DNA from: a virus
DNA: 23,987 bases
IMG/VR virus record: IMGVR_UViG_3300047300_000799
Span: 1 to 23,987 of that record
Direction: 5' to 3' (one strand)
Shown: piece after piece, positions 2,164 to 22,300 of the stretch
Layout: the number at the start of each line of letters is the position of its first letter
Numbering within the stretch: position 1 is the stretch's first letter
Notes under the pieces: model-generated
What the model saw: the letters and a program-made list of their open reading frames with translations, nothing else
Databases searched by the model: none
Told to the model about the DNA's origin: nothing
Made by a program: the position numbers and the translations under genes

Positions 2164-2523
2164 TCACTGCAAAGTCAGCATGTACTGGGTGGTCTCGTAC
2201 AGGCGCAAGATCTCGTCGATCGTGTTCTGCAGCGATGTCTCATCCTTCTCGCAGATCTGATATCGGTACATCTCGATCCACTCAGCGCGAAACGCGATCA
2301 AGTCGCGGATGTCGTCGTCATTCCCGTCCTCGCGCTTGATGGCCATGCGCGTCTTGTAGTAGCCCTGGTATTGCTCGACAAAACCGTCGATCAGCTCGAT
2401 TAGCGAGTCGTAAAACTCGTTTAATGCCTTGTGCTCGGCGTAGCTCTTGGTCTTCCAGTGCGCCAGGTGCGCGGCATCGCGGTCAAAGAGCACCTTGCTG
2501 ACGAATTCTTCTGCTTTGTTCAT
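2164..2523 (-). CDS. DUF5856-like helical phage protein (119 aa)
   Basis: The protein is all-helical and acidic (119 residues), with AHLAHWKTKSYAEHKALNEF near the N-terminus followed by DSLIELIDGFVEQYQGYY. This arrangement (His-rich helix, 'TKSYAEHKALNEFYD', 'D.F.E.YQG') matches the DUF5856 group as I remember it, which has a ferritin/Dps-like helical look and is common in marine and freshwater phages; its function is unknown. The start is supported by GAGGTGAAAC just before ATG. It sits 8 bases downstream of the portal gene and 8 bases upstream of the 425-residue gene, so it is made with the head genes. Confidence 0.7.
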   Translation of the reverse strand: MNKAEEFVSKVLFDRDAAHLAHWKTKSYAEHKALNEFYDSLIELIDGFVEQYQGYYKTRMAIKREDGNDDDIRDLIAFRAEWIEMYRYQICEKDETSLQNTIDEILRLYETTQYMLTLQ

Positions 2524-6141: not shown

Positions 6142-6309
6142 TCAACTTGGTTTTTTTGGGTGGTGAATTTTGTGGGGGGACTCCTTCTTTCGCCGGCCCC
6201 CCACCCCGGCTTTGATGGGGGGTGGGGGTCGGGAAATTTCGGGCCAAGGCCTGGCCAGATCGAGCCACGCCACGCGATCGCAGGGCAGGCAAGGGCGTGG
6301 TAGCGTCAT
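6142..6309 (-). CDS. Possible small basic protein (55 aa), doubtful
   Basis: An ATG at 6309-6307 overlaps the TGA of the small terminase gene by 4 bases, the same coupling used elsewhere in this operon. The frame runs 55 codons and its TGA lies within the ribosome binding site of the DUF3310 gene. The product starts MTLPRPCLPCDRVAWLDLA, continues through a Pro run and ends in a Lys/Arg/His-rich tail. Gene-like spacing argues for it. Against it, the residues are biased as expected from translating the GC-rich inverted repeats underneath (6172-6228), and I recognise no family. It may be a real short gene or a structured non-coding spacer. Confidence 0.35.
   Translation of the reverse strand: MTLPRPCLPCDRVAWLDLARPWPEISRPPPPIKAGVGGRRKKESPHKIHHPKKPS
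6172..6228. repeat. GC-rich inverted repeats with two mutually exclusive hairpins
   Basis: CCCCCACCCC (6198-6207) can pair with GGGGTGGGGG (6219-6228) over 10 base pairs. CCCCCCAC (6197-6204) can instead pair with GTGGGGGG (6172-6179) over 8 base pairs. The two share one strand, so only one can form at a time. There is no U tract on either strand, so this is not a standard terminator. The G runs could also form a quadruplex. It lies directly upstream of the DUF3310 and terL genes in the transcribed sense. Confidence 0.6.
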
Positions 6310-6884
6310 GCACCTTGCGCGTCTCCTGGGCCGTTCTGCTGCGTCTTGCCCTCGCCGTCCGAGGCCGCCGCCTGCCCGCCGCCTGCCGGCGATGCGTCTA
6401 CCGGATCTTTAATCCGGTACTTGCCGCCGTTATCTCGTTCTAAATCAATGACTTGCGTGACCTGCTCGACTGGTTGTGCCACGGTTGTGCCAATGTTGCG
6501 CTGGCCAAGCCATGACAGCTGCACCTGAATGCCGCCCTCCACGTTGGCGTTGATCTGAGTCGGCAGCACCTTGCTCACCAGGCCGACGAACGCGGCCCGA
6601 TCGCTCTGCGTGCCGTTGGCCAGCCGCGCCAGGTACTCAGTGCCGCCGACCTGGTCGAACGCCTCCAGAACCGCGTCGCGCAGGTTCGTCAGCTTGTTGC
6701 GCACGCCCTTCGGCCTGCCCGCGGGCGTCCGCACGCCCCCGTTGCCCACCGCAACCCTCTTTTCGCCGTTTTCAGGCCTTTTTTCTGTCGCCTCACTGGA
6801 TGCATATCCAGCATCAACCGCCTGCTGCAAAACCGCGTCCTGCAGCCGCTGCCCGATGTCGTCTTGTTGCTTTGTTTCGATCAT
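6306..6884 (-). CDS. terS: Putative terminase small subunit
   Basis: The small subunit recognises the packaging site on phage DNA and hands it to the large subunit. The 192-residue protein has a charged N-terminus and then TPAGRPKGVRNKLTNLRDAVL (about 53-73), a basic 'GRPKG.RNK.T' entry into a helix-turn-helix-like region common in phage small terminases. This is followed by AFDQVGGTEYLARLA and DRAAFVGLVSKVLPTQI, typical of this type. The C-terminal third (about 150-192) is Gly/Ala/Gln-rich and disordered. It stands two genes before terL. Family membership is recognised from the pattern rather than a catalytic motif, so the call is likely but not certain. Confidence 0.75.
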   Translation of the reverse strand: MIETKQQDDIGQRLQDAVLQQAVDAGYASSEATEKRPENGEKRVAVGNGGVRTPAGRPKGVRNKLTNLRDAVLEAFDQVGGTEYLARLANGTQSDRAAFVGLVSKVLPTQINANVEGGIQVQLSWLGQRNIGTTVAQPVEQVTQVIDLERDNGGKYRIKDPVDASPAGGGQAAASDGEGKTQQNGPGDAQGA

Positions 6885-6899
6885 GCTGCGATTTTCCCA

Positions 6900-7007
6900 T
6901 CACTGCGAAGACAGCCAAATCAGCCAGACGATGCCAAAGCAAAGCAGACCCCACCACCAAAAGCCAAACGCGCAAAGCACGATCCCGGCCACCAAATACA
7001 AGTCCAT
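6900..7007 (-). CDS. Tiny membrane protein (35 aa)
   Basis: ATG at 7007-7005 is preceded by AAAGGGATTGAA, a good ribosome binding site. The frame ends at 6900-6902, 15 bases before the small terminase start. The product is almost wholly hydrophobic, with two candidate membrane stretches: LYLVAGIVLCAFGFWWW (3-19) and LLCFGIVWLIWL (21-32). Trp is very frequent. Tiny bitopic or hairpin membrane proteins are common in phages and mostly uncharacterised. It could be an inner-membrane peptide acting in lysis control or exclusion, but nothing in the sequence decides this. Confidence 0.6.
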   Translation of the reverse strand: MDLYLVAGIVLCAFGFWWWGLLCFGIVWLIWLSSQ

Positions 7008-7026
7008 TTCAATCCCTTTCAAAATC

Positions 7027-7181
7027 TGCACCGCACCTTACCCCTATATATCTAAGTGAGTGCGGTGCACCCCAAAACACACTACCGGTAGTGCATATGC
7101 ACCGCACCCCTGTGGGGGGTGCAGTGCAATGCACCTTACTGCACCTTACCCTGCACCTTACTTGCGGTGCAGTGCGGTGCA
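7027..7181. repeat. Iteron-like and palindromic control element upstream of the terminase genes
   Basis: Three copies of TGCACCTTAC lie at 7130-7139, 7140-7149 and 7152-7161, and a fourth 9-of-10 copy at 7032-7041. The related 10-mer GTGCGGTGCA or its complement occurs at 7027-7036, 7060-7069, 7098-7107 and 7172-7181, with a near copy at 7162-7171. Two perfect palindromes lie between: CACTACCGGTAGTG (7080-7093) and TGCATATGCA (7092-7101). An AT-rich run (CTATATATCTAA) lies at 7044-7055. The array enters the last codons of the 65-residue gene. Candidate roles are small-terminase packaging site, replication iterons or operators of a late promoter. Confidence 0.7.
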
Positions 7182-7333
7182 GACCGCTCTCGAGCAGGGC
7201 AATTCCTGCCCTGATTGCAGTTGCCATGACATGGCGGGCATGTCTTTCCCCTGCCAAAAATCCTGTCCCAGCTGTCCTGGTAGCCCTTGCCAGGGCGTCG
7301 ATCTGATCCTTTGCCGCCGTCTGATGCGCTCAT
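7136..7333 (-). CDS. Small phage protein with WDxIFG motif (65 aa)
   Basis: The N-terminal 30 residues (SASDGGKGSDRRPG, then DSWDRIFGRG) match the 'GGKGS..RP......WD.IFG' pattern of a very common but uncharacterised small phage protein. CPPCHGNC (about 33-40) may bind metal. The last residues, SKVQGKVQ, are encoded by the GTAAGGTGCA repeats of the downstream element, so the C-terminus appears to have been captured from repeat DNA and is unlikely to be conserved. AAGGGGGGAAGC precedes the ATG, and the start overlaps the previous stop by 4 bases. Confidence 0.75.
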   Translation of the reverse strand: MSASDGGKGSDRRPGKGYQDSWDRIFGRGKTCPPCHGNCNQGRNCPARERSAPHCTASKVQGKVQ

Positions 7334-7557
7334 GCTTCCCCCCTTGCGCGTATGTAGTTTTGAATTACCTCATGCTTGGCGTGAGCAATCGGGGCCGCGC
7401 ATTCGTTGCACAGGTCGGCAATGCCATTGATCTGATAGGTGTGCGTATTTGTTGGTCTAGGAAACACCCAGTTCATATCGTTTGTGCAGTCGTAGTTTTC
7501 GACAGCACATTCCTTCTGGCAGATATCACAAATGATCCGGTAAGTAAGCTTGATCAT
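7330..7557 (-). CDS. Small zinc-finger-like protein (75 aa)
   Basis: The protein has two Cys pairs, CDIC (residues 10-13) and CNEC (about 50-53), with a further Cys in between, the layout of a small zinc ribbon. The C-terminus is a charged helix (HAKHEVIQNYIRARGEA). I do not recognise a named family; such proteins in phage early regions often bind host proteins or nucleic acid. It overlaps both neighbours by 4 bases (ATGA) and has an AAGGGGGAAGC ribosome binding site, so it is translated with them. Confidence 0.75.
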   Translation of the reverse strand: MIKLTYRIICDICQKECAVENYDCTNDMNWVFPRPTNTHTYQINGIADLCNECAAPIAHAKHEVIQNYIRARGEA

Positions 7558-8640: not shown

Positions 8641-8813
8641 TTGTTTCTCCTGATTGCTTTATTTGTCCAGCAGCTGGCGCACATCCAGCGCGTTGGACTC
8701 ATCTGAATGCCGCCCTCTGGCGGTCTGTCTTGGTTGCACTTGGTGCACAACTTGAACTTGTGCATGTTGCGTGGCGTGTTGGGCATGTTGATGCCGTTCT
8801 TGAGGAAGCTCAT
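8637..8813 (-). CDS. Small four-cysteine zinc-finger protein (58 aa)
   Basis: The frame lies between the primase-helicase stop and the next gene and overlaps each by 4 bases (ATGA at both ends), which strongly suggests a real coupled gene. It encodes a basic 58-residue protein with CTKC (residues 23-26) and CASC (45-48) spaced 18 residues apart, a compact treble-clef or ribbon zinc site, and a basic tail (NKAIRRNK). A longer frame on the same strand (8659-8871) is Gln/His-rich and out of register with the gene chain. The likely role is nucleic-acid or protein binding alongside the replication protein. Confidence 0.75.
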   Translation of the reverse strand: MSFLKNGINMPNTPRNMHKFKLCTKCNQDRPPEGGIQMSPTRWMCASCWTNKAIRRNK

Positions 8814-10951
8814 TCGTCTGCCTCCTCTCGCTGTGCCCAGTTGGGCGGTGCGCCTGACCCAATGGCCACACGCGTGTGACCTGTGTCTGTGAGCACCACG
8901 CGCTGACCAGTCATGCGGTTGGCCTTCTTGTAGGTCTCAAGCGCAACGAGGCCTTCGCGCTCCATGTCCCGCATGAGGCCAAAGAAGGTCTTGCGGTCAA
9001 GGCGGTTGGGAAACTCGGTGTCGTCGGCCAGGACGTTGTAGATGTTGGAGCGCGGTGAGTTGCTGTTCATGGACAGGTTGACGCCGGCAGCGACTGCGCG
9101 GCTGATCAGTTTGAGAATCACAGCGCGTTGGGTATTTCGCACCAGTGACTGCGCGGCTTTTTGGCCTGGGATGGTTCCAAAGCGCTTGAAGACCTTGGCG
9201 CCTGAGTCGAACTCGATGCGCAGCTCCTCTTGCAGTGGGCCGAGGTTGCACTTCTCATGGCGCAGCACGACGGTGTCCGCGTCCCGCACCATGGCCCAGC
9301 GTGACCTGGCTGAGTTGTTCCATGCGGTCGAGCCTGAGAACGTGGTGTTGCTGTCCAGGCCTGCCCCACCGCGGACTGAGGCCTTGTCAACGTGCGCCAG
9401 CAGAAGGACGGCTGCGCGTGTGACGTTGGCGATCAGGTTGAGGGCACGCATGAAGCCGCGCACCTCGGTTCTGTCGTTCTCGTTGGAGGCGAAGACGTCG
9501 GACGCGTTGTCAATGATCACGGTGTTGGCTTTGGTGGCCACAGTCACGTCAGCGAGCCACTGCATCCGCTCGGTGGGGTTGCCATCGCGCCACAGGACGC
9601 AGTCGGCCTGGGTCAAGTCATAGACGACTAGGCGATCGCGCAGCTCTGCCATTGACAGGCCGAGATCCGCGCAGATGTTGGCCACGCGAAAGTGCACTGT
9701 CCTGGCCTCGTCCTCGCCTGACAGGATCAAGACCTTGGAGGGCTTGGTGGCGATGTCAAAGAGGGGTGAGCCAAAGGCCATGGCCACGGCAAGCTGCAAT
9801 GACAGGTTGGACTTGCCCACGCCACCGTTGGCAGACAGCAAGGTGACTGTGCCCTCGGGCAGCCAGCCGTCAAAGCGCCACTCAGTAGGCTCAGGCTGCT
9901 TGTGCTCGAGCTGGCCCCAGTCCATGGGAACCAGGTCGCCGGCATCGACATGACGCTCTGACGTGTCGCTTTCGCCCTCGCTTTGCGACAGGTTCAAGTT
10001 GACAGTGATCTTGGGCGGCTGGCGCTCCTCGGGCGCAAACTTCTCGGCTGACTTCACAGCCCTGGGGATCTCGGCGCGTCTGGCTTCCCAGCGGCGCAGC
10101 TCCTCGGGATCGCCTGGCCGGTTCTCATCCATAAGCGAATACAAAAAGTCCACAGCTGCACCGGGGAACATGCCACCGGCAATGAGTGACGCTGCTAGGC
10201 GCGTGAGGCTCTCGTGATAGACGCGGGCGCCTGGGTTTGGATCGGTCAGCCCGGCGATCATTTCGCCTGCATGATTTGTTGCGCCTGTTGTTGAAGACTT
10301 GGTTGTCGGCATCTGAGCGGTGGCTCTCAGACTGTCCAGCTCAATGCCGATGGCGGCGCATGCGTCCTCGAGGCTCCAGCGCACGTTGGGCTGCCAGACC
10401 TCTAGCTTGACTTGCCACTCGCCGGCAGCGCGTGGCTTGGTATTCATGCCCTGGGGCAAGCGAACGTATCGAACGCAGGCATTGCCCGAGGCGTCATTAC
10501 TTCTGCCGCGGGCGGCCAAAGCCGACATAAGGCGGTCAATCAGCTGCCTGTTTTGGGTATCCGTATCTTCCCCGTCGAGGAAAATACCTACCTGGAATTT
10601 GCCTGGCGATGTCTGCAAGGCGTAGGAAAAGCCTTGGACATCAGACAGTTGCACGTCGTCTAAGACAAGCACCGCAAGTCGCACAAACGCCGACTTGTTT
10701 CTAGCAATCTCTCCATCTGGCGTCGCCGTGAGAACCGACGTACAGAAGTAGGTGTTGTCTTGGATCGAGCGATCAATCAAAGCTGCTTGGTTGGGCAGCC
10801 CCTTGTATGCGCGTCCAGCCCACACAGTGGGAGGCGCGTTGTTTGGGTCAGCGCGAAACGAGCACACCCAGCCATGGGTGCCTGGCTCCATCTCGCCGTA
10901 GATCTCCGCGAGGAAGTCGCTGTTGGTCATCGATGTAGCTCCGACGACCAT
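8810..10951 (-). CDS. Replication primase-helicase (RepB-like primase plus RepA-like AAA ATPase)
   Basis: Residue numbers count from the first codon of the open frame at 10957. Residues about 90-200 resemble RepB-type primase domains (VLVLDDVQ, LQTSPGKFQVG, VRYVRLPQGMNTK). Residues about 360-560 are a RecA-fold helicase of the RepA/AAA_25 type: Walker A SANGGVGKS (375-383), Walker B TVIID (479-483) and the AHVDK sensor-like motif (521-525). The C-terminal about 100 residues look like a winged helix (RKTFFGLMRDMEREGLV). The product would prime and unwind DNA for phage replication. A GTG at 10957 overlaps the previous stop, but GAGGTG is best placed for the ATG at 10951, so that start is used (713 residues). 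It is the first large gene after the regulatory region. Confidence 0.88.
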   Translation of the reverse strand: MVVGATSMTNSDFLAEIYGEMEPGTHGWVCSFRADPNNAPPTVWAGRAYKGLPNQAALIDRSIQDNTYFCTSVLTATPDGEIARNKSAFVRLAVLVLDDVQLSDVQGFSYALQTSPGKFQVGIFLDGEDTDTQNRQLIDRLMSALAARGRSNDASGNACVRYVRLPQGMNTKPRAAGEWQVKLEVWQPNVRWSLEDACAAIGIELDSLRATAQMPTTKSSTTGATNHAGEMIAGLTDPNPGARVYHESLTRLAASLIAGGMFPGAAVDFLYSLMDENRPGDPEELRRWEARRAEIPRAVKSAEKFAPEERQPPKITVNLNLSQSEGESDTSERHVDAGDLVPMDWGQLEHKQPEPTEWRFDGWLPEGTVTLLSANGGVGKSNLSLQLAVAMAFGSPLFDIATKPSKVLILSGEDEARTVHFRVANICADLGLSMAELRDRLVVYDLTQADCVLWRDGNPTERMQWLADVTVATKANTVIIDNASDVFASNENDRTEVRGFMRALNLIANVTRAAVLLLAHVDKASVRGGAGLDSNTTFSGSTAWNNSARSRWAMVRDADTVVLRHEKCNLGPLQEELRIEFDSGAKVFKRFGTIPGQKAAQSLVRNTQRAVILKLISRAVAAGVNLSMNSNSPRSNIYNVLADDTEFPNRLDRKTFFGLMRDMEREGLVALETYKKANRMTGQRVVLTDTGHTRVAIGSGAPPNWAQREEADE

Positions 10952-10953
10952 GC

Positions 10954-11196
10954 TCACACCTCAACGGCGGCAAGCTCCTTGACACCGATGCGCACGCGCT
11001 GGTCGCGTGCCATCTCTATGAGCTGCGGCCAGTACCGCTGCGGGATGAGGCCACCAGTGCCACCAGGACGCGGCTGGCACCAGCGTGAAAGAGTTGATTT
11101 GTCCAGCTCGAGCGCTTCTGCGACAGCTGATTTGCCACCCAGCTTTTCGATCACTGTGTAGGCGGGCTCAAGGGTATGGACGACGGGAATGGTCAT
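10954..11196 (-). CDS. Cro/CII-like DNA-binding regulator (helix-turn-helix, carph-isopro type)
   Basis: The 80-residue protein has YTVIEKLGGKSAVAEALELD followed by KSTLSRWCQPRPGGTGGLIPQRYWPQLIEMA. That is a helix-turn-helix with the 'W..PR..GG..G.IP.....L...A' extension typical of small phage Cro-like or carph-isopro proteins. The frame extends to 11295, but the ATG at 11196 has GGAGA before it and lies at the edge of the divergent control region, so it is chosen. By position (first leftward gene, opposite a CI-type repressor, in front of the replication gene) it should be the lytic-side regulator. Which operator it binds cannot be read from sequence. Confidence 0.8.
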   Translation of the reverse strand: MTIPVVHTLEPAYTVIEKLGGKSAVAEALELDKSTLSRWCQPRPGGTGGLIPQRYWPQLIEMARDQRVRIGVKELAAVEV

Positions 11197-17886: not shown

Positions 17887-17930
17887 TGGAGGCGGGGGTC
17901 GGAATCGAACCGGCGTACACGGATTTGCAG
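17887..17930 (-). other. tRNA-Cys 3' half (att core, not a functional tRNA)
   Basis: Read on the minus strand this is CTGCAAATCC... through ...GGTTCGATTCC to CCGCCTCCA. It contains an anticodon loop with GCA, the variable region, a T loop TTCGATT, the acceptor 3' strand, discriminator T73 (the Cys identity base) and CCA. The bases 5' of the anticodon loop do not complete the stem, and there is no D arm, so no tRNA is made. A C-A mismatch is predicted in the T stem (position 50/64). A frame across it that reads GIEPAYTDLQG is an artefact of the tRNA sequence. Confidence 0.85.
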
Positions 17931-17941
17931 GGCGATCCGAC

Positions 17942-19918: not shown

Positions 19919-22300
19919 TTACCTCGCTAAAGAATACTTGAATGGGTTGGATGCCAGAGCCATGAAGATGTAAGTTTGACCGTTTTGATTGGTGTTTGTG
20001 TCAGTAGTTCTGATTTTGAAACCATTGCTCAATACATCAAGGCCATACGATGAACTATTAAGTTCAGCATCAGAGGCATTAGCTAAAAGAGGCTGTTGGG
20101 TTAAGTTGCTTGTACTTCTAGTAGTGTCATAAATAAACCAATTATTACCACTTGAAGATGTCTGTTTAATCAACACATACGCAGGACGCATACCCGTGAA
20201 CACAAAAGGCCCGTCAGTAGAACCATTACCTGTGTAAGAGCCAAACTTGCTATACCCTGCTACTTCTGCAAAGCAGTAGGCGACAACAGAGTCACCATTT
20301 GAAGCAATACCAGATTGTCTTTGACCCCAAGTTGTAGAACTTGTACTCCAATATGGAGTAAACGAACTAGTCGCCGCAGTAGTGTTTAAAGCAATGTATT
20401 GATTATTACCAAGAGATGTGTGATATGTCACCCAATTACTTACCGCACTTCTATTTTTTGTAATAATCATGGCGGGTGCTACACCAAGCCCATGACCCAT
20501 AGTTTCTATGCCAGAAGCCCCATTTGAAGTCCAAGTCACCACACTAAACCCACTTGTAGTGTTTGCGCTTACTGTTGAAGTGATTGACCCTGCTGTGTTG
20601 GATGAGCCTGCGCCGTTGGCTTTCCAGTTCCATGCGACATAAGTCTGACTGTTTTCGTTAATGCTTCCATCTGTACCTAAAGAAAATCCATCAGTATTAA
20701 ACGATGTCAGGACATTGGTTGATGTACCTTCAGCCGCAGTTATTTCAGTAACTAAGTTCTTTGAAGTGCCACGAACAGAATCAGTCACTGTATTTCCAGA
20801 AGTAGAACTTCTTTCTTTAATCCAAGTCCAGTCAGGTTGAAACCCAACACCTGTAATTGAACGAGCAGTTCCATTGCCCGTATATAAAACAGGGTTGAAA
20901 TACTTACCCGCCTGAGTCGCAGTAGTCGCACCAATGGTAGGCGTAGGCAAGTTCTGTGTGCAAAGTGCTTTGAAGCCTGATGGGGCTGTGTAGGCAAATG
21001 GGCGTTGACCGAAGTTGATGTAAGCCGTAACTGTTCCATTTAAAGCAACAGTCGGGAAGTATGGGCCAGAAGTTAATCCTGTGTATGCCGTTCCCTGAGA
21101 CACATTGTTTTTGTAAAAAGTAATCGTTCCTGCATCAGCATCAAAAGCAATTCCGATGACATCATTTACTACCCAAGAACTGCCATACGCAAGACCGCCA
21201 GCGTTGTATTTATAGCCATCGTGAGCAGAATATCCCCAGCCAGCAGACGAAACGCCAAAGTAGTCGTTTAGCGTGCAAGAGTTTAATGAAACACCAACCA
21301 TGCAATAGAGCGTTCCAGTAGCCGCTGTAGCAGTTACCTCCCAATACCATTTGCCTGATGTCATGCCAATAGTTGCTCTTGAACTAACCCAAGATGCAAC
21401 AGACCTGTTAAATTGCAGATTTCCGTTAGATAGTACTAATTGGTTGTCTAGCGGATTCAATGTGCAATAGTTCCCCCGCACAGTCCCACCCACACCAGTA
21501 TCAGTTCCATACGATGTTGGTGAATCTACAAGTGAATCATTCCCTGCACCAGCAGTCACGCTGAAGTTATTAGGTGTCCAGTTGTTGCCGTTACCTGAGT
21601 AATCTTTACCCAAAGTAGCCGCAGTTGTGTTGCTGTTATCTGAGAAGTTCAGATAGAAGCCGTTAGTGCCGTATGAGCCTGAGTAGGCTTTAGGTTGCCA
21701 TACGCCTGTTTGTGCGTTGGTTTCTCCAAAAGATGATGGGGTTAAGGCTTGACCATCGATGAAGTTAATTTCAGTCATATATTGGTCAGCCAAATATGCT
21801 GTGTAACTTCCTGTGCCGCCACCAATCAAGTTTGAGATTGTGTTGTTAATTGGCGTATCGTAGTTCTGTGTTGGATATGTTCCACCAAGCGTTTGCTCGA
21901 CATTGTTTACATAAATTTTGACACGATTAGCGGCAGTCGCTTGTGTGGTGTCTACCAACAAAACAATGTGATACCAAGCAGACACATCTCTAAAAACGCT
22001 TGTGCTTGAAGTATTTACACCAAAAATATCAGAAGTGCCATCAAAATAAGCAAAGGTTAACCAATCACCACTTGATGTGCCAAATGAAAAATAGTTAAAC
22101 GCTGAACCGCTTACTGTGGCAAGCATTGCATTGCCAGAACTTAATTGAGAACGCTTAACCCAAGTGCTAAATGTCCAAGTCTTACGATTCCCCGCACTTG
22201 CAGGAGTACGATTCAGATAAGCAGAGTCAGCACTATTAAAGCGCAAACTGCGTGAGATTTGATAGCCACCAGAAGTCTGTGTCGTGTTCGATGAAAACAT
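19919..22300 (-). CDS. Receptor-binding / tail tip protein with LamG-like, SPRY-like and repeated domains (793 aa)
   Basis: Residues about 15-200 look like a concanavalin/LamG sandwich (SLRFNSADSAYLNRTP, WTFSTWVKRS, WYHIVLLVDTTQ, IYVNNVEQ, YLADQYMTEINFIDG). Residues about 300-435 look like SPRY/B30.2 (GKWYWEVTA, GWGYSAHDGYKYN, VIGIAFDADAGTITFYKN). From about 470 to the end, three related beta units each begin with a 'G..P....IK' strand (GFQPDWTWIKERSS, GVAPAMIITKNRS, MRPAYVLIKQTSS), a DUF7483-like repeat as I recall. It probably recognises the host surface. The DNA is clearly richer in A and T than its neighbours, which suggests acquisition by exchange. GAGGTGA precedes the ATG. Confidence 0.8.
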   Translation of the reverse strand: MFSSNTTQTSGGYQISRSLRFNSADSAYLNRTPASAGNRKTWTFSTWVKRSQLSSGNAMLATVSGSAFNYFSFGTSSGDWLTFAYFDGTSDIFGVNTSSTSVFRDVSAWYHIVLLVDTTQATAANRVKIYVNNVEQTLGGTYPTQNYDTPINNTISNLIGGGTGSYTAYLADQYMTEINFIDGQALTPSSFGETNAQTGVWQPKAYSGSYGTNGFYLNFSDNSNTTAATLGKDYSGNGNNWTPNNFSVTAGAGNDSLVDSPTSYGTDTGVGGTVRGNYCTLNPLDNQLVLSNGNLQFNRSVASWVSSRATIGMTSGKWYWEVTATAATGTLYCMVGVSLNSCTLNDYFGVSSAGWGYSAHDGYKYNAGGLAYGSSWVVNDVIGIAFDADAGTITFYKNNVSQGTAYTGLTSGPYFPTVALNGTVTAYINFGQRPFAYTAPSGFKALCTQNLPTPTIGATTATQAGKYFNPVLYTGNGTARSITGVGFQPDWTWIKERSSTSGNTVTDSVRGTSKNLVTEITAAEGTSTNVLTSFNTDGFSLGTDGSINENSQTYVAWNWKANGAGSSNTAGSITSTVSANTTSGFSVVTWTSNGASGIETMGHGLGVAPAMIITKNRSAVSNWVTYHTSLGNNQYIALNTTAATSSFTPYWSTSSTTWGQRQSGIASNGDSVVAYCFAEVAGYSKFGSYTGNGSTDGPFVFTGMRPAYVLIKQTSSSGNNWFIYDTTRSTSNLTQQPLLANASDAELNSSSYGLDVLSNGFKIRTTDTNTNQNGQTYIFMALASNPFKYSLAR

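Follow-up and report, generated by a model that had tools for sequence, protein, structure and literature searches.

A cluster of iterons and hairpins ahead of the terminase genes: a proposed replication origin in a group of uncultured phages

The IMG/VR virus record analyzed here is 23,987 bases in length and is taken as a whole (the window). Positions 7027–7181 hold a dense group of short repeats and palindromes between early and packaging genes, and the question is what this segment does. The initial annotation offered three functions: a pac site for TerS, replication iterons for the primase-helicase or its partners, and operators of a late promoter. The replication iterons are strongly supported, as the repeat word covaries with the winged-helix domain of the primase-helicase; the pac site and the operators are not supported. 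The cluster is most probably (probability roughly 0.86) a phage replication origin, with iterons that would be read by the winged-helix domain of the phage's own primase-helicase.

The repeat cluster and its gene surroundings

The leftward operon of the window runs from a Cro-like helix-turn-helix gene through the primase-helicase gene, small genes, a glutaredoxin gene and further small genes to the cluster and then to the packaging genes. Past the cluster, in leftward order, are a 35-aa ORF, terS, a gene for a DUF3310 protein, terL and the portal gene. The genes for a CI-like repressor, recombination proteins and an integrase are rightward. The cluster is found, as had been noted, at the early/late boundary within the leftward operon and near terS; it is ~140 bp upstream of terS and 1.6 kb from the primase-helicase gene. 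The proposed origin is flanked by a small conserved gene on one side and by a small membrane gene and terS on the other. The features are as follows.

7027–7181, no strand: proposed replication origin, an iteron cluster with two hairpins (basis: repeats, folds, same position in relatives)
7027–7036, minus: iteron GTGCGGTGCA, left arm of the core hairpin
7060–7069, plus: iteron GTGCGGTGCA, right arm of the core hairpin
7098–7107, minus: iteron GTGCGGTGCA, within an arm of the GC hairpin
7172–7181, plus: iteron GTGCGGTGCA
7162–7171, plus: near copy TTGCGGTGCA
7033–7041, minus: iteron GTAAGGTGC
7131–7139, minus: iteron GTAAGGTGC
7141–7149, minus: iteron GTAAGGTGC
7153–7161, minus: iteron GTAAGGTGC
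7080–7093, no strand: 14-base palindrome CACTACCGGTAGTG, not kept in relatives
7091–7102: 12-base palindrome GTGCATATGCAC
7027–7069, minus: core hairpin, a perfect 10-bp stem of inverted iterons with a 23-nt loop
7041–7054, minus: near-constant loop core TAGATATATAGGGG, TAGATAGGGTGTGGG-like in relatives, its form kept as the word changes
7098–7128, minus: GC hairpin, arms 7098–7110 and 7116–7128, loop of 5 nt
7136–7333, minus: small conserved ORF (DGGKGS-RRPG-GYQD-W-RIFG), 3' end and stop inside the iterons
6900–7007, minus: small membrane-like ORF of 35 aa, read from sequence
6306–6884, minus: terS candidate (phrog_11043-like), no covariation with the repeats

Small words were counted across the whole window. 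There are exactly four copies of GTGCGGTGCA (shuffle mean 0.13) and exactly four of GTAAGGTGC, all on the minus strand (shuffle mean 0.11), and neither word has a copy in the window outside 7027–7181. The count agrees with the repeat units first described, i.e., four of each and the near copy TTGCGGTGCA. The repeat score of the cluster is 138 and that of the best other 155-base stretch of the window is 54; the cluster score was not reached once when the region was shuffled 2000 times with dinucleotides kept. This bears out the earlier statement that the cluster is unique in the window. The perfect 14-base palindrome was found as reported, and a second palindrome is also present, but it measures 12 bases and not the 10 given for it.

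Iteron origins consist of short specific repeats that are clustered in mostly non-coding DNA near an initiator gene, and the repeats are recognized by a cognate initiator that the element itself encodes. The cluster at 7027–7181 is of this kind in that short specific copies are clustered near the gene of the proposed initiator. The ORF at 7136–7333 (minus strand) begins with MSASDGGKGSDRRPGKGYQDSWDRIFG and has an N-terminus that is conserved in relatives; its stop codon, TAA, belongs to a GTAAGGTGC unit.

Elsewhere in the window, a tail-type protein with SPRY and DUF7483 domains is encoded at 19919–22300 (minus strand). This gene has ~42–45% GC in a genome of 58–60% GC and was probably acquired from elsewhere. 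The sequence at 17887–17935 (plus strand), behind the integrase gene, reads GGAGGCGGGGGTCGGAATCGAACC... and resembles the reverse complement of a tRNA/tmRNA 3' end; it is likely an attachment site. Between structural genes, positions 2164–2523 (minus strand) encode a protein that matches phrog_858 (starvation-inducible regulator) and DUF5856.

Layout of the cluster in related phages

IMG/VR was scanned for relatives with TerL, TerS and the primase-helicase, and many contigs that share the gene order were recovered. All of the close relatives are uncultured metagenomic contigs. Phage records contained neither a TerS relative nor a sequence related at the DNA level across most of the region, and a genome scan with TerL gave a distant partial match only.

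Dozens of related phages from metagenomes have the repeat cluster at this position, either ahead of terS or just behind the primase-helicase gene; the simple relatives, e.g., L025, L026, L193 and L209, have the origin directly 3' of this gene. Where the flanking genes are the same the cluster is present, often with another word, which is not the outcome named in the initial annotation as refuting it; a differing small ORF is located between origin and terS. The word classes, assigned by k-mer counts, differ by lineage: GGTGCA, CGTGCA, TGCACA/GCACAC, GATGCA, GAAGCA, TGCGC/CGCATGCG, CGGGACA and AACGGCAC. Comparison of the computed layouts shows conservation of the repeats and of two hairpins, the GC hairpin and one whose loop is near-constant, with a DnaA box in several relatives. 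Unit spacing in relatives had been proposed as a check: in close relatives the repeats and both hairpins follow each other in unchanged order and at unchanged distances, while neighboring genes differ.

Both strands of the segment fold far better than shuffles (z -7.4 to -8), into the predicted hairpins. A GC hairpin of different sequence is found at the same place in most relatives inspected. The second hairpin has, in relatives, a loop of TAGATAGGGTGTGGG form between arms that are built from the local word. By computation, the flanking stem beats shuffled flanks (p <= 0.05) in 34 of 40 matches to a core regular expression, with 26 different stem arms among the 40, i.e., the loop is constant and the arms change; the expression missed the window's own core and matched a wrong spot, and the window core was taken from the fold and the alignment. 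L004 and L009 lack the 14-base palindrome, and L003, L005 and L007 have an imperfect version of it; it is probably dispensable and not a conserved part. Of 40 origins, seven carry a perfect DnaA box, TTATCCACA, at most 70 bp from the core; the expectation over all loci is 0.0009 per 70 bp. The window itself was found to have no DnaA box. Such boxes are common near iterons, though not universal.

The transcribed strand has strong hairpins (z -8) whose arms vary while the pairing is kept, and this may also suggest an RNA element with a role in antitermination or processing of the leftward transcript. However, the repeats are in both orientations and are present outside the stems as well, Rfam gave no match (Rfam and ARAGORN searches found nothing), and the words track a domain of DNA-binding type in the replication protein, as described below. 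An RNA element is accordingly hardly probable.

Variants of the layout were also seen. L089, and similarly L016, has an extra hairpin with word-like arms upstream of the standard set. In four distant relatives (L208, L209, L210 and L205; ~45% identity), which represent a second origin type, the primase-helicase gene is followed directly by AACGGCAC or CGGGACA repeats, and the C-terminal domain of the protein is unrelated. The 71,149-base contig G016 (L013, L096, L120) has two phages of the group arranged end to end, and their origin words differ (GGTGCA and GAAGCA types); the contig is either an assembly chimera or a pair of tandem prophages.

Exchange of the repeat word and the winged-helix domain

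The proposed initiator and its proposed iteron reader are at the following positions.

8810–10957, minus: proposed initiator, with a RepB_primase-like part (weak), an AAA_25/RSF1010-RepA-type helicase and a C-terminal winged helix
8813–9145, minus: C-terminal winged-helix domain, residues ~605–715, proposed iteron reader

The primase-helicase is one protein of 715 aa with its own C-terminal winged helix, in a part of ~110 residues. The helicase part matches AAA_25 (6.7e-36), and its only clear PDB match is RSF1010 RepA (PDB 1g8y, E 1.6e-7, residues 357–546). The N-terminal part was assigned from a RepB_primase match with an E value of 8e-4, which is below the Pfam gathering score, together with motif reading; a search of this part against PDB gave no match to RepB'. 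AlphaFold modeling (39 sequences) predicts a winged-helix layout for the C-terminal domain with a pLDDT of 82. Foldseek places the model with PadR/MarR/DnaD-type winged helices, a likeness at the fold level only (E above 1e-3, TM ~0.5), and a profile search of the domain against PDB gave no convincing match and no P4 domain. Proteins of the L032/L057 type have an unrelated C-terminal domain and CGGGACA repeats; the AlphaFold pLDDT of the CGGGACA-type domain is only 65, and its last 70 residues look H-H-H-E-E.

Partial Mantel tests (2000 permutations, with some relatedness remaining in the p values) show that word distance tracks winged-helix distance when the rest of the primase-helicase is controlled for, with r 0.37 and p 0.0005. 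The correlation between word and winged helix is 0.485 given TerS, 0.52 given TerL and 0.39 given the Cro-like protein. Once the winged helix is allowed for, there is no link between the word and TerS (r -0.13, p 0.98), TerL or the Cro-like protein. Joint inheritance, by way of the closeness of reader code and origin, explains part of the signal. In genomes with the origin more than 500 bp from the gene the link between word and winged helix is weaker but persists (r 0.25, p 0.004), and with TerS as covariate these far genomes give a weaker link (r 0.20, p 0.02).

Sister proteins that are 85–99% identical in the rest of the sequence differ in the winged-helix domain where the words differ. The natural swap between L028 and L190 has 99% identity in the rest versus 67% in the winged helix, with unrelated words. 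Other swaps show the same pattern (rest/winged helix: L156/L159, 96/58%; L016/L150, 91/50%; L013/L174, 88/42%). The converse is seen in L079/L141, where the rest is 68% identical, the winged helix 75%, and the word GAAGCA is common to both. On a tree of the rest of the protein 17 word changes are needed, compared with 11 on the winged-helix tree. The wing sequence RK[KR][HYF] goes with TGCG words (10/11 versus 0/29, counts that are not independent), and among phylogenetically independent pairs six of seven agree and none disagree (p 0.03). The word is thus exchanged together with the C-terminal winged helix and not with TerS, TerL or the Cro-like protein, as computed from these comparisons. 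This covariation strongly implies recognition of the repeats by a cognate initiator.

These results bear on two other functions. Packaging sites (cos or pac) often sit upstream of terS and contain repeats; on this reading TerS would bind the repeats, with TerL cutting nearby. The ~140 bp distance to terS fits this, and a few contigs (L098, L110, L152, L156, L037 and L055) end inside the cluster. However, the word has no link to TerS given the winged helix, the contig ends in the cluster are at scattered points with no common end point, and the overlapping ends of most of ten near-complete contigs are far from it. The ends inside the cluster are most simply assembly breaks at hairpins. Without TerS covariation or convergence of contig ends, the pac site proposed in the initial annotation is very unlikely. 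Control of the packaging genes, in which a Cro-like, CI or other regulator acts on the repeats as operators and switches these genes on, would suit an early/late boundary inside the leftward operon. Yet neither the cI/cro control region nor any other part of the window has a copy of the words, there is no covariation between them and the Cro-like protein, and no sigma-70-like promoter was found in 6800–7400. Operators of a late promoter, as first suggested, have very little probability as the function of the cluster, though a promoter may be present in addition.

The proposed origin and known replication systems

The cluster as a replication origin suggests a mechanism in which binding, opening and priming are drawn by analogy to RSF1010, P4 and pRN1 (PMC4234260). 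Judging from the covariation, the winged-helix domain would bind iterons of the GGTGC(A) type. The helicase part, which is of the RSF1010-RepA type and belongs to this same protein, may then open the DNA and expose the two hairpins, and the RepB'-like primase part would start a primer at the near-constant hairpin loop, in the manner of the RSF1010 ssi sites. Host DnaA may help in those relatives that have TTATCCACA beside the core. GC skew in ten near-complete relatives has maxima near the origin in three and elsewhere in the others, with no clear turning point.

The fused architecture and the repeated exchange of word and domain in this phage group appear to be undescribed. For the architecture this is based on literature searches and on the finding that no phage or plasmid record searched covers 80% of the primase-helicase; in the searched collections most of the protein has no counterpart from an isolate. 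A wider reading is tentative and is given somewhat less than even weight: a widespread phage group may have a single initiator that unites a RepB'-like primase, a RepA helicase and a winged helix, with word and reader repeatedly exchanged as a cassette and the constant part reading the fixed loop. The exchange would be driven by selection, e.g., through incompatibility with relatives that co-infect or through antagonists directed at the origin, and wing residues would form a code (RK[KR][HYF] with TGCG, NR with TGCA).

The analysis provides proposed origin and initiator assignments for an environmental phage group. Natural pairs such as L028/L190, in which reader and repeats differ and the rest is near identical, make the initiator recognition code directly testable. 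In V. cholerae PLE a comparable exchange is tied to an origin-cutting nuclease (PMC8263062), which raises the question of the driver in phages.

In RSF1010, RepC acts on iterons, RepA unwinds and RepB' primes at ssiA/ssiB (PMC4234260). The phage system is similar to this IncQ oriV in having a RepA-type helicase and iterons with stem-loops at the proposed origin, and the phage primase part weakly matches RepB_primase. In contrast, RSF1010 has a separate RepC and three proteins, activities that are proposed to be fused in one protein in the phage; the proposed iteron reader is a winged helix with no known kinship to RepC, and the iterons are short (~10 bp), lineage-specific and found in phages, not plasmids. 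P4 alpha has primase, helicase and a C-terminal winged-helix origin-binding domain in one protein (PMC4234260 and its references); the phage protein would be of similar make-up, with the winged helix as a predicted fold. The P4 primase is of the Toprim type, however, whereas the present protein has a RecA/RepA-like helicase and a RepB-like primase, and its winged helix is without a sequence match to a solved structure.

In pRN1 and the Bordetella phage BIP-1/BPP-1, a stem-loop origin is downstream of a primase-helicase-winged-helix gene (PMC4234260). There, as here, the stem-loop sequence varies and the structure is kept; unlike the present phages, they have SF3 helicases and are reported without origin iterons (PMC4234260). 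An exchange of this kind has experimental precedent in V. cholerae PLE RepA. In PLE RepA (PMC8263062) and in the PICI Pri-Rep/ori system (PMC6092414) the DNA-binding domain covaries with the origin, the rest of the protein is conserved, and ori-swap experiments were done; PICI iterons flank a melting region (PMC6092414). PLE RepA is a RepA_N protein with an N-terminal DNA-binding domain, compared with a proposed C-terminal one in the phage, and PLE and PICI are satellites, whereas the present elements are phages with terminase, portal and integrase. In the satellites the covariation was demonstrated by ori swaps; in the phages it is seen by sequence comparison.
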